Origin: Pseudomonas grandcourensis
GTDB taxonomy: Bacteria > Pseudomonadota > Gammaproteobacteria > Pseudomonadales > Pseudomonadaceae
NCBI RefSeq assembly: GCF_039909015.1
Contig: NZ_CP150919.1
Location: 3,696,501-3,760,500, forward strand
Direction of reading: 5' to 3'
DNA: 64,000 nucleotides
The position numbers and the translations under genes were made by a program. Below the pieces are notes generated by a model, which made no database searches, was not told where the DNA came from, and saw nothing but the letters and a program-made list of their open reading frames with translations. Below are positions 5,721 to 50,107 of the stretch, piece after piece. Within the stretch, counting starts at the first letter, position 1; each line of letters opens with the position of its first letter.

Positions 5721-5882
5721 GGTGCGTCCTTGTGACGATGTGTTTTTTATTGAGGCGCAGAGTGTGTCACAACCTTCCGAGCGCTCAAGCGATAGAAAGC
5801 GCCGTCGTTAGCCGATAGCATTTTCTGATTGAATGTGCGTACCGGCCTCTAGTAAGCTCGGACCATCCATCGGAGACAGACC

Positions 5883-6011
5883 ATGTTCAACGCCCTCTTA
5901 CAGCTTCGTACCGCCAGCGCCCCGCGCTCGGTTGCGGCTGCCCGGGTGAACGACGGTTGTGCTCCGGTCAGCTTTTATTTTGGGTATTGGTTTAGCCACT
6001 GGCGCGCCTGA
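5883..6011 (+). CDS. Aromatic-rich leader peptide 1 upstream of DAHP synthase
   Basis: A 42-codon ORF with a good Shine-Dalgarno (GGAGA at 5872-5876). Its last 12 residues are FYFGYWFSHWRA, so seven of ten consecutive codons (31-40) specify Phe, Tyr or Trp. It stops 50 bp before an intrinsic terminator and lies upstream of the gene for the first enzyme of aromatic amino acid synthesis. This is the anatomy of an attenuation leader: ribosomes stalled at Phe/Tyr/Trp codons change RNA folding. The segment TGGGTAT inside the stall codons (5981-5987) is complementary to ATACCCA just after the stop (6011-6017), so a ribosome there would disrupt a hairpin. Function is inferred from layout and codon content. 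Confidence 0.75.
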   Translation: MFNALLQLRTASAPRSVAAARVNDGCAPVSFYFGYWFSHWRA

Positions 6012-6060
6012 TACCCACACGGCGCCCACTTTAAACGGGTCGCCACCAGAGAATTCTCAA

Positions 6061-6097
6061 CCCCCGGTCGGCCTCCCGACCGGGGGTTTTGTTTTTT
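6061..6097 (+). terminator. Intrinsic terminator/attenuator in the DAHP synthase leader
   Basis: An 11-bp perfect GC-rich stem (6061-6071 with 6076-6086, loop CCTC) is followed by TTTTGTTTTTT. It sits between two aromatic-rich mini-ORFs and upstream of the DAHP synthase gene, so it must be read through for the gene to be expressed from the distal promoter. Confidence 0.9.
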
Positions 6098-6146
6098 CAG
6101 CCCCAACACTTTTAGCGACACACCAGACATTCAGAGGATTCAACAC

Positions 6147-6299
6147 ATGAACTACGCCACTTATTACCGTTACGACAGTTTTACCGCCTGGCGATTTACC
6201 ACCCTCCGCTCGGGACAGCCTGCCGCCTCCGATCGGTCACCCACAGGTGGCAAGCACACACGCGCAGCCAATCCGGCCAATTGTCGAACACCCCAGTAG
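6147..6299 (+). CDS. Aromatic-rich leader peptide 2 upstream of DAHP synthase
   Basis: A 50-codon ORF starting after AGAGGA (6133-6138) with eight bases of spacing. Its first 17 residues, MNYATYYRYDSFTAWRF, contain four Tyr, two Phe and one Trp. The rest is unremarkable and ends at TAG 6297-6299, 49 bp before the DAHP synthase ATG. It lies after the attenuator and has no terminator of its own. It may therefore act at the level of translation or transcript folding around the synthase start, where GCGGG and CCCGC near 6310-6330 can pair. I infer a second sensor of charged Tyr/Phe/Trp tRNA. No homology is claimed. Confidence 0.6.
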   Translation: MNYATYYRYDSFTAWRFTTLRSGQPAASDRSPTGGKHTRAANPANCRTPQ

Positions 6300-6348
6300 G
6301 GCCGAGCGCGCGGGCACGAACCCGCCGCCAGCCCAGGAAGCCTTGAAT

Positions 6349-7428
6349 ATGAACTCGTCCGTCTCTGCACTGCCGCTGTCCACCTTGAGCCCTGCCAATG
6401 AAGCGCTGACCCTGCGCCTGCCCAGTTCATCGCAACTTAAACAGCAATTGCCCCTCAGCAACGCCCTGACCCGGCAAGTCGCCGACCACCGCCAGGCGGT
6501 TCGCGCGATCCTCAACGGTGAAGATTCCCGCCTGCTGGTCATCGTCGGCCCCTGCTCGATACACGATCCGAAATCGGCCCTCGAATACGCCGGCAACCTT
6601 GCCCGCCTCGCCGCCGAAGTCAGCGACGAAATGCTGCTGGTGATGCGCGCCTACGTCGAAAAACCCCGCACCACGGTTGGCTGGAAAGGCCTGGCCTACG
6701 ACCCGCACCTCGATGGCAGCGATGACATGGCCGCTGGCCTGACGCTGTCCCGCGAGCTGATGCGCGAAATGCTCCGCCTGGGTCTTCCTGTTGCCACTGA
6801 ACTGCTGCAACCGATGGCCGCCGGCTACTTCGACGATCTGTTGAGCTGGGTGGCGATCGGCGCCCGGACCACGGAGTCGCAGATCCACCGGGAAATGGCC
6901 AGCGGCCTGGGCATGCCGGTAGGGTTCAAGAACGGGACAGACGGCGGTGTCGGCGTCGCCAGCGACGCCATGCGTTCCGCCGCCCATCCCCATCGCCATT
7001 TCGGTGTCGATAGCCAGGGACATCCAGCGATCATCCAAACCCCAGGTAATGCGGACACCCACCTGGTATTGCGCGGCGGCCATCGCGGGCCGAACTACGA
7101 CAGCGCCAGCGTCGCCCAGGTGAACAGCGACCTGACCAGACTGAGGATTCCGGCTCGAATCATGGTCGATTGCAATCACGCCAACAGCGGCAAAGACCCG
7201 TTGCGCCAGCCAGCCGTGTTCCAGGATGTACTTGAACAGCGTCTGCAAGGTGATCGTTCGCTGATCGGCATGATGATCGAGAGTCATTTGTTCGAAGGCT
7301 GCCAGCCGTTGAGCTCGTCATTGAAGTACGGTGTGTCGGTAACCGATGGTTGCCTCGGTTGGGCCGGGACAGAACAACTGTTGCTTGAAGCGGCAGACCG
7401 GCTGCGAGCGTCAAACAACGCCCGATAA
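6349..7428 (+). CDS. 3-deoxy-7-phosphoheptulonate (DAHP) synthase, class I
   Basis: This enzyme condenses phosphoenolpyruvate with erythrose-4-phosphate to give DAHP, the entry step of the shikimate pathway. The 359-residue protein has the class I (AroFGH) signatures GPCSIHDP, RAYVEKPRTTVGWKG and GFKNGTDG, plus a conserved C-terminal HANSGKDP/MIESH block. I start at the ATG preceded by AGGAAG (6335-6340). An upstream in-frame extension to 6247 would swallow leader peptide 2 and is unlikely. Feedback type (Phe, Tyr or Trp) cannot be read from sequence alone. Expression is probably controlled by the two aromatic leader ORFs and the attenuator. Confidence 0.95.
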   Translation: MNSSVSALPLSTLSPANEALTLRLPSSSQLKQQLPLSNALTRQVADHRQAVRAILNGEDSRLLVIVGPCSIHDPKSALEYAGNLARLAAEVSDEMLLVMRAYVEKPRTTVGWKGLAYDPHLDGSDDMAAGLTLSRELMREMLRLGLPVATELLQPMAAGYFDDLLSWVAIGARTTESQIHREMASGLGMPVGFKNGTDGGVGVASDAMRSAAHPHRHFGVDSQGHPAIIQTPGNADTHLVLRGGHRGPNYDSASVAQVNSDLTRLRIPARIMVDCNHANSGKDPLRQPAVFQDVLEQRLQGDRSLIGMMIESHLFEGCQPLSSSLKYGVSVTDGCLGWAGTEQLLLEAADRLRASNNAR

Positions 7429-49211: not shown

Positions 49212-49328
49212 CGGATGCCCTATGGCTAATGTGGCGGGCATACGGGACGACGACCGGCAACGCGGACGCGCGTGCCTGAAGAGTTCGCCACCGGATCACC
49301 CCGCCCGGTTGAAATTGAGAATCTGTGA

Positions 49329-49510
49329 CGAGGCAGGTCTCCTGGCTGACGGTGTGCCGGCCTTGAGCCTGGCATTCGCTGCGCCTTCCCGCCGGCCTCA
49401 TGGATTGAGCCTGCAGTGGCGTGGCAACGAACATCACCGTTCACAGTTGCGGGGGCAGCCGCGGCATCGACCGCGTTCCCTTCTTAGCTTCGGCAAACAC
49501 CGAAGAACCT
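49329..49510 (-). ncRNA. Cobalamin riboswitch upstream of cobW
   Basis: Read on the minus strand it has the class features in order: GGGAACGCGGT, CGCGGCTGCCCCCGCAACTG, GCCACGCCACTG, and the B12 box GCCAGGAGACCTGCC (about 49330-49347). It ends about 118 bases before the cobW ATG and should repress the cobalt-chelation operon when adenosylcobalamin is plentiful. Confidence 0.95.
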
Positions 49511-49572
49511 CGAAAGCGCAAGGCTACGCATGGTATTGGGGCGGGTCAATGTTCATGCTGAGAATGCGATCA

Positions 49573-49697: not shown

Positions 49698-49769
49698 TGT
49701 GCTGTGCGAACCTTAAATGCGAACCCTTGCCAATTGACGCCCAACCCCCGCCCATGCTCTCCTACACAC

Positions 49770-49975
49770 CTTGTTACGGGTGCCCTTCACAGGGTGAAAC
49801 GGGAAACCGGTGAATCATGTGCTTTACTCTTAAGCCATGTCAGTCCGGTGCTGCCCCCGCAACGGTAAGCGAGCGAAGCATCAGATCCACTGTGCCACTA
49901 CGGCATGGGAAGGTGATGTTTTCAGGTTCAGGCCCAAGCCTTTACCCCTCGTGAGCCCGGAGACCGGCCCGCAAC
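49770..49975 (+). ncRNA. Cobalamin riboswitch upstream of cbtB
   Basis: It shows GGTGCCCTTCACAGGGTG, GGGAAACCGGTGAA, GGTGCTGCCCCCGCAACGG, GCCACTACGGCATGGGAAGG and the B12 box GAGCCCGGAGACCGGC (about 49953-49968). It ends about 130 bases before cbtB and should switch off the cobalt-uptake operon when cobalamin is plentiful. It is divergent from and independent of the riboswitch at 49329-49510. Confidence 0.95.
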
Positions 49976-50107
49976 ACAAAGTGACCAGTACGATCACTGA
50001 ACCAACAAACCCGCGGTGGGCGGGCGCTGTTTGAAACCTTGCGCGCCTGGTCGTGCGGGTTTTTGCATGCGCTCTTATTCCCCGCTGACAGACCAGAGGG
50101 AAACGCC

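Follow-up and report, generated by a model that had tools for sequence, protein, structure and literature searches.

The stretch of DNA analysed here (64,000 nucleotides, hereafter the window) carries two leader ORFs in series upstream of aroF, their order and strand being read directly from the sequence. The following features make up the locus.

5872..5875, + strand: Shine-Dalgarno site GGAG of ORF1; GGAG-type sites also lie 5' of ORF1 in many relatives
5883..6011, + strand: leader ORF1, 42 aa, C-terminal end SFYFGYWFSHWRA, with aromatic codons near the stop; its GYW core is conserved
5969..6086, + strand: RF00627, 'Pseudomonas sRNA P15', read here as a transcription attenuator (Rfam match, alignment and structure)
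5981..6017, + strand: hairpin 1 (segments 1:2), its 5' arm on the Gly-Tyr-Trp codons of ORF1 (predicted folds)
6021..6044, + strand: hairpin 2 (segments 3:4), GGCGCCC pairing with GGGTCGCC (predicted folds)
6037..6073, + strand: predicted antiterminator, formed by segment 4 (6037-6044) and the 5' arm of the terminator (~6066-6073) (pairing probabilities)
6059..6096, + strand: intrinsic terminator, 13-bp stem at 6059-6088 and U-tract to ~6096 (terminator scan; compensatory changes)
6134..6138, + strand: Shine-Dalgarno site GAGGA of ORF2; GAGGA/AGGA-type sites lie 5' of ORF2 in relatives
6147..6299, + strand: leader ORF2, 50 aa, beginning MNYATYYRYDSFTAWRF with a Tyr-rich start and ending CRTPQ, stop codon TAG (sequence, conservation)
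6189..6197, + strand: nearly invariant TGGCGATTT, codons Trp15-Arg-Phe17, a candidate 5' arm for pairing with the aroF Shine-Dalgarno-to-start region (conservation; cross-lineage pairing)
6206..6251, + strand: conserved element of long-form ORF2, CCGCTCGG at 6206 against CCGATCGG at 6229 (one mismatch) and GCCGCC at 6222 against GGTGGC at 6246 (common to family f36)
6299..6334, + strand: GC-rich hairpin from the ORF2 stop to the aroF Shine-Dalgarno site (predicted, -24.1 kcal/mol in the window)
6335..6339, + strand: Shine-Dalgarno site AGGAA of aroF (sequence)
6349..7428, + strand: aroF, type I DAHP synthase, 359 aa, ATG at 6349 (NF009395, 521.7 bits; TIGR00034, 438.7 bits)

A first-pass annotation of this DNA had described two tandem leaders rich in Phe, Tyr and Trp codons around an attenuator before a DAHP synthase gene. 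Its counts are correct: seven of the ten residues in the ORF1 tail (FYFGYWFSHW) are aromatic, as are seven of the first 17 residues of ORF2 (Y3, Y6, Y7, Y9, F12, W15 and F17). The ribosome sites that it assigned to both ORFs are present, the predicted intrinsic terminator does follow ORF1, and the downstream gene is indeed a DAHP synthase, of type I. Two details have to be amended. ORF2 does not begin immediately after the terminator, its start lying about 50 nt past the U-tract, and the single promoter is not established, as a sigma-70 scan found none and a looser best-match scan returned two recurrent weak positions.

Among ATG-start ORFs of 15 to 60 aa on both strands of the window, only ORF1 and ORF2 reach at least seven F/W/Y per 17 residues, and 20 first-order-Markov sequences of 64 kb yielded two ORFs in total with at least seven in 17. 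The double aromatic leader before aroF is a confirmed observation. No second copy of ORF2 was detected in the same genome (next best match, E 1.2), and the second DAHP synthase of this genome (L088) has no aromatic leader by the filter used. Elsewhere, the window contains a divergent pair of cobalamin riboswitches close together (49315-49527, - strand, and 49761-49986, + strand) and three tRNA genes (793-1267, - strand).

Conservation of the leader and its linkage to aroF

The P15 element of the window scores 125.6 bits with the RF00627 covariance model against a gathering score of 70, which places it in this Rfam family. The ORF1 tail, the hairpins and the terminator all belong to the P15 family. 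RF00627 is present in 269 of 298 genomes sampled from the genus and in 200 of 248 from the family (14 of 19 genera). In the order, 25 of 244 genomes have a match (E up to 0.01), distributed among the family itself (nine), f36 (nine) and f43 (seven), and 12 of these 25 matches are above the cut-off. No match was found in the 14 control genomes. In all eight genomes found to have a second match among those checked, that match is the opposite strand at the terminator. Separately, in genome G557, contigs C5 and C15 each carry a full match with the same score, corresponding either to a duplication or to an assembly artefact.

P15 is tightly associated with the gene. A total of 277 loci entered annotation and 272 were annotated, of which 265 have a DAHP synthase downstream of P15 by tblastn. 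The seven others are L068, L070, L077, L082, L083, L250 (where the contig ends) and L272, the first five having originally been retrieved through their own DAHP synthase match. Moreover, four of 59 genomes of the same genus lack P15 (G014, G027, G041 and G042), and these same four are the only ones in which a distant paralogue is the sole DAHP synthase match. Thus, P15 travels with aroF. The set of P15, ORF1 tail, ORF2 and an aroF-like start was also found in a record labelled as an UNVERIFIED Pseudomonas phage (L302, OQ572414.1, 18856-23974), which for this reason probably contains host chromosome.

Rfam assigns P15 the type Gene, whereas at this locus it appears as a cis attenuator that overlaps a leader ORF and is followed by a second leader and aroF. 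That P15 is instead a trans-acting sRNA in which the ORFs are incidental seems extremely unlikely. The Rfam type is in line with this alternative, and an extract of PMC2375449 names P15 among the sRNAs detected by Livny et al., mentioning it only as not recovered; yet synteny with aroF, joint absence in 4 of 59 genomes, the overlap with an aromatic ORF1 and the predicted alternative antiterminator all speak against it. The terminated attenuator RNA could act in trans as well.

The first-pass annotation had proposed a comparison across relatives, and both ORFs, the terminator and the aromatic content prove to be kept family-wide. ORF2 followed by the aroF start was identified at 270 of the 272 annotated loci, with TAG (258), TAA (9) or TGA (3) as its stop codon and, for 264 of the 270, a gap of 35-49 nt to aroF. 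These ORF2s encode 199 distinct peptides of 27-51 aa, with at least four aromatics in the first 22 residues and, on average per distinct peptide, 3.6 Tyr, 1.8 Phe and 1.0 Trp; the corresponding means for the ORF1 end are 2.7 Y, 2.4 F and 1.3 W. The nine bases TGGCGATTT (Trp-Arg-Phe) are invariant in the 116 distinct ORF2s of 50 aa and recur in 10 of 16 loci from other families. The refuting test put forward with the annotation asked whether close relatives lose the aromatic codons or the frame, and such cases are nearly absent: only one locus of 272 (L004, in genome G046) is disrupted, by a 2-nt deletion in ORF2 downstream of the aromatic codons, and its new frame passes the aroF start. At L250, the contig ends too early to judge ORF2.

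Sixteen loci lie outside the family (L086 and L310-L324). By our reading, 11 of them have an ORF2, of 25-59 aa, and five do not. In four of the latter (L310, L314, L316 and L323), which are natural single-leader forms, aroF follows P15 and ORF1 directly and no space is left for ORF2; at L315, the filter found no ORF2. In six f36 loci, ORF2 keeps the pattern WRFS...RS...S[DG]R...GG, and in five of them (L318, L319, L320, L322 and L324) the ORF2 stop either overlaps the predicted start of aroF or is 2-5 nt away from it (L322 and L324 without tblastn confirmation of that start). At L091 (family f20), in a genome without any RF00627 match, a DAHP synthase is preceded by another type of aromatic leader (..SWWFGYGFYFSQYPGRP), accompanied by a hairpin that by eye resembles a terminator; it is apparently an independent single leader.

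The 6206-6251 element is present in long ORF2 forms and in f36, and absent from short ORF2 forms. In the six f36 loci its helices, CGGTCGG:CCGACCG and GCCACC:GGTGGC, are perfect or contain a wobble, and in the group of the window the first helix has one mismatch. As the two complementarities cross, the helices must be alternative or pseudoknotted. L086 and L321 have a different hairpin at the same position. The middle of long-form ORF2 was considered as a genus-specific insertion, an idea dropped on finding the same stretch in f36.

ORF2 could also encode a functional small protein. Eighty-seven database proteins resemble it, some annotated as hypothetical, a RS..SDR..GG stretch is common to ORF2 and f36, and in codons 19-32 third positions are no more conserved than first and second ones (0.98, 0.95 and 0.91, among the 116 distinct 50-aa forms). 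Outside the aromatic and WRF part, however, ORF2 is highly variable, both in length (27-51 aa within the family and 25-59 aa beyond it) and in sequence, and the crossing complementarities in the stretch common with f36 suggest RNA structure. We thus regard a small-protein function as most unlikely.

ORF1 and P15 as a predicted transcription attenuator

Enterobacterial his, trp and pheA attenuators combine a leader ORF containing regulatory codons, alternating helices and an intrinsic terminator. The aroF leader shares this organization, and the six-segment chain of P15 resembles the his leader. It differs in that Phe, Tyr and Trp codons are mixed in one run and in that a second aromatic leader ORF lies between the terminator and the gene.

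The P15 structure given by Rfam consists of hairpin 1, hairpin 2, a small hairpin and the terminator. Folding the RNA for alternative structures, as the earlier annotation had suggested, predicts that P15 behaves as an attenuator switch. When the 5' arm of hairpin 1 is removed, which mimics a ribosome on the Tyr-Trp codons, segment 2 is predicted to pair with segment 3, and segment 4 (GGGTCGCC) with the 5' arm of the terminator. Pairing probabilities were computed at the stage preceding synthesis of the terminator 3' arm, for the 172 distinct sequences matching our segment patterns. The mean antiterminator probability is 0.12 without a ribosome and rises to 0.70 and 0.58 with the A-site on Tyr and Trp, respectively; it is 0.25 at the Phe following Trp and 0.46 for a ribosome on the stop codon. 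The corresponding values for the window are 0.01 free, 0.88 at Tyr, 0.83 at Trp, 0.02 at the following Phe and 0.57 at the stop. In the 18 sequences of the 172 carrying the variant GGGACGCC, the antiterminator is weaker (0.43 at Tyr).

The switch is thus predicted for Tyr and Trp stalls, not for a stall at the Phe after Trp, so that Phe starvation is poorly explained. The probability computed for a ribosome on the stop codon implies that repression must rely on ribosome release. Finally, once complete, the terminator wins in all folds made of the window, so that the switch must be kinetic.

Sequence variation supports some of these elements. Compensatory changes were found at three pairs of the terminator stem (54 sequences), while hairpins 1 and 2 hardly vary, so that covariation says little about them. 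Just ahead of Gly-Tyr-Trp, ORF1 has three codons that mostly encode F or Y, the two being interchanged among 84 distinct sequences (FYF 26, YFY 12, YYF 8, YFF 6, FFY 6), a pattern suggesting that aromatic codons in general are under selection. Taken with the terminator, ORF1 is most likely a leader-peptide transcription attenuator, and this first step is well supported in silico. A further pairing noticed by eye, between GGGTCGCCA of P15 and TGGCGATTT of ORF2 (9 bp with wobbles), was rejected, as the P15 variants GGGACGCC and GGGCCGCC occur without matching changes in ORF2.

ORF2 and the aroF ribosome-binding site

A second intrinsic terminator after ORF2 was considered and rejected, the terminator scan having found no terminator-like site downstream of ORF2. 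ORF2 is thus more likely to act on aroF translation. A candidate means is provided by the Trp-Arg-Phe stretch, which is complementary to the aroF Shine-Dalgarno-to-start region in several lineages by differing sequences (GACTGGCG:CGCCAGTC and TTTTGCTTC:GAAGCAAAA). At L069, the ORF2 Trp stretch can form a long helix with an aroF region that includes the start codon, and the L239 type is another in which the predicted helix is strong. In the window, CCAGG at 6333-6337, on the aroF Shine-Dalgarno site, is complementary to CCTGG at 6187-6191 inside ORF2.

We evaluated this pairing with one representative per cluster and with the target limited to the Shine-Dalgarno-to-start region. The mean duplex energy of ORF2 stretches with their own aroF region is -10.22, against -9.05 (sd 0.28) for permuted pairs, and none of 5,000 permutations was as low (42 clusters). 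Better pairing than expected is shown by 64% of the 42 representatives, and 15 of the 42 do no better. After addition of the other families (49 clusters), 1 of 10,000 permutations was as low. Real spacers also pair better than shuffled ones (p 0.004, n=41; p 0.012, n=21; p 2e-5, n=75; and p 0.006, n=49, or 0.026 without the best three). For two control segments of ORF2, neither the permutation nor the shuffled-spacer test showed excess pairing with the aroF region, and the segment past the Trp stretch falls below chance in its pairing with the start region of aroF. An earlier duplex test using wider segments was almost flat (mean rank 0.42 for short and 0.46 for long forms).

Other predictions are less favourable. 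Across 238 sequences, a ribosome stalled at the ORF2 Trp codon brings no increase in the predicted accessibility of the Shine-Dalgarno site of aroF (mean 0.403, versus 0.424 free), and the smallest mean (0.348) is obtained when the ribosome sits at the stop codon of ORF2. The GC-rich hairpin before aroF is seen in most of the individual folds listed, whereas alignment folding of 60 sequences gave no consensus for it; nor did alignment folds of the ORF2-to-aroF region in short forms yield a consensus. Also rejected was a small hairpin, visible in some lineages and missing in others, that would close over the Shine-Dalgarno site of aroF. The helix of the window is itself short (CCTGG:CCAGG), with a duplex value of -6.3 for the segment starting at 6334; in L002, a near relative, these five pairs reach -8.2 kcal/mol. 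ORF2 is likely a second, translational attenuator, a step with moderate support overall that is weak in this window and not reflected in mean site accessibility.

Two alternatives bear on this step. First, only ORF1 may regulate. ORF2 would then be a coupling cistron, maintaining translation along the long read-through leader and supplying aroF with ribosomes, while its aromatic codons would contribute little sensing. The loci without room for ORF2 fit regulation by ORF1 alone, and the close or overlapping ORF2 stop and aroF start in five f36 loci fit coupling, as does the shifted frame of L004 extending past the aroF start; in most family loci the distance is the 35-49 nt given above. This explanation nevertheless accounts neither for the aromatic richness of 199 ORF2 peptides that vary in length and sequence nor for the near-invariance of TGGCGATTT, and we consider it unlikely.

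Secondly, ORF2 could control transcription rather than translation, through a Rho-dependent or pausing mechanism inside or after it. By eye, the second half of ORF2 is C-rich and G-poor, and the deficit of pairing past the Trp stretch relative to shuffled spacers is what would be expected of open RNA. Under a Rho mechanism, however, ribosome stalling would expose the C-rich stretch, so that starvation would promote termination, the opposite of what a biosynthetic gene requires. Control of this kind therefore appears very unlikely, and translational attenuation by ORF2 is the reading retained below.

A proposed two-step model for aroF and its relation to known leaders

We rather favour a model in which two ribosome-based aromatic sensors act in series on the aroF mRNA leader. 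In the first step, a ribosome would translate ORF1 and, when Tyr- or Trp-charged tRNA is scarce, would stall on the Tyr-Trp codons and open hairpin 1. The freed 3' arm of hairpin 1 would then pair with the 5' arm of hairpin 2, releasing GGGTCGCC to the 5' arm of the terminator and allowing read-through. With sufficient aromatics, hairpins 1 and 2 would form and the terminator would release a short RNA, presumably the one earlier seen as 'sRNA P15'. In the second step, the Trp-Arg-Phe stretch of ORF2 in the read-through mRNA would pair with the ribosome-binding and start region of aroF, the hairpin between ORF2 and aroF bringing the partners together. With a ribosome positioned at the final aromatic codons of ORF2, the Trp stretch would be covered, so that aroF translation would be highest when aromatics are limiting; a ribosome stalled earlier, at the initial Tyr codons, would leave this stretch uncovered.

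Translation of the two ORFs, ribosome stalling, the opening of ORF2 control under starvation and its action in this strain are what we infer from these predictions. The fully specified form of the model may hold but is put forward tentatively: a family-wide leader with two checkpoints, in which Phe, Tyr and Trp would be sensed by the six-segment transcription attenuator P15 and then by a Tyr-weighted translational attenuator whose Trp-Arg-Phe codons serve as anti-Shine-Dalgarno arm.

The earlier annotation had seen here one region sensing all three aromatic amino acids twice. Both leaders are aromatic-rich and conserved, and their codon content suggests that both sense aromatic amino acids; their roles, however, probably differ, and the Phe switch is poorly predicted. 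Their weighting differs as well: both contain Phe, Tyr and Trp codons, but ORF2 is Tyr-weighted (3.6 Y, compared with 2.7 Y at the ORF1 end).

The annotation had also been aware of no described double leader of this kind. Leaders with two ORFs are in fact known, although we found none sensing the products of one pathway at two levels. According to extracts of PMC3641672, the mgtCBR leader of Salmonella contains tandem attenuators in which mgtM and mgtP answer ATP and proline and control transcription. It shares with the aroF leader two short ORFs in one leader and tandem control. Unlike in mgtCBR, both aroF-leader ORFs are rich in the same amino acids, ORF2 being more Tyr-weighted, so that, judged by codon content, they do not seem to answer different signals, and the second ORF seems to be translational. 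The erythromycin-induced ermB gene, as presented in extracts of PMC8274638, depends on two leader peptides for its translational attenuation. The two systems have in common two leader peptides before one gene and translational attenuation, but ermB responds to erythromycin instead of amino acid supply and is a resistance gene, not a biosynthetic one.

Attenuation before DAHP synthase genes has been proposed in other bacterial groups: a putative Phe-Tyr-Phe leader peptide in Corynebacterium glutamicum (PMC4046766) and, in a Shewanella table that refers to work on E. coli, an 'Attenuator sensing tyr-tRNA' for aroF (PMC2659441). The extracts of both articles describe no double leader. The main text of a study of premature terminators (PMC2965389) contains none of the terms 'aromatic', 'Phe' and 'DAHP', and the open-access literature searched yielded no account of ORF2 or of attenuation of aroF by P15.

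The double aromatic leader is real and conserved, and most likely represents a novel form of leader-peptide attenuation. For an Rfam 'sRNA' family present in most of the pseudomonad genomes sampled, it suggests a concrete role in cis. It is also a candidate for RNA-level control of entry into the aromatic pathway in pseudomonads, where the TyrR homologue, according to extracts of PMC5343134, mostly controls degradation pathways. Relatives of the same order with a single leader provide natural controls. If both steps work, the aroF leader would be a natural serial circuit, in which one signal is checked at transcription and again at translation.
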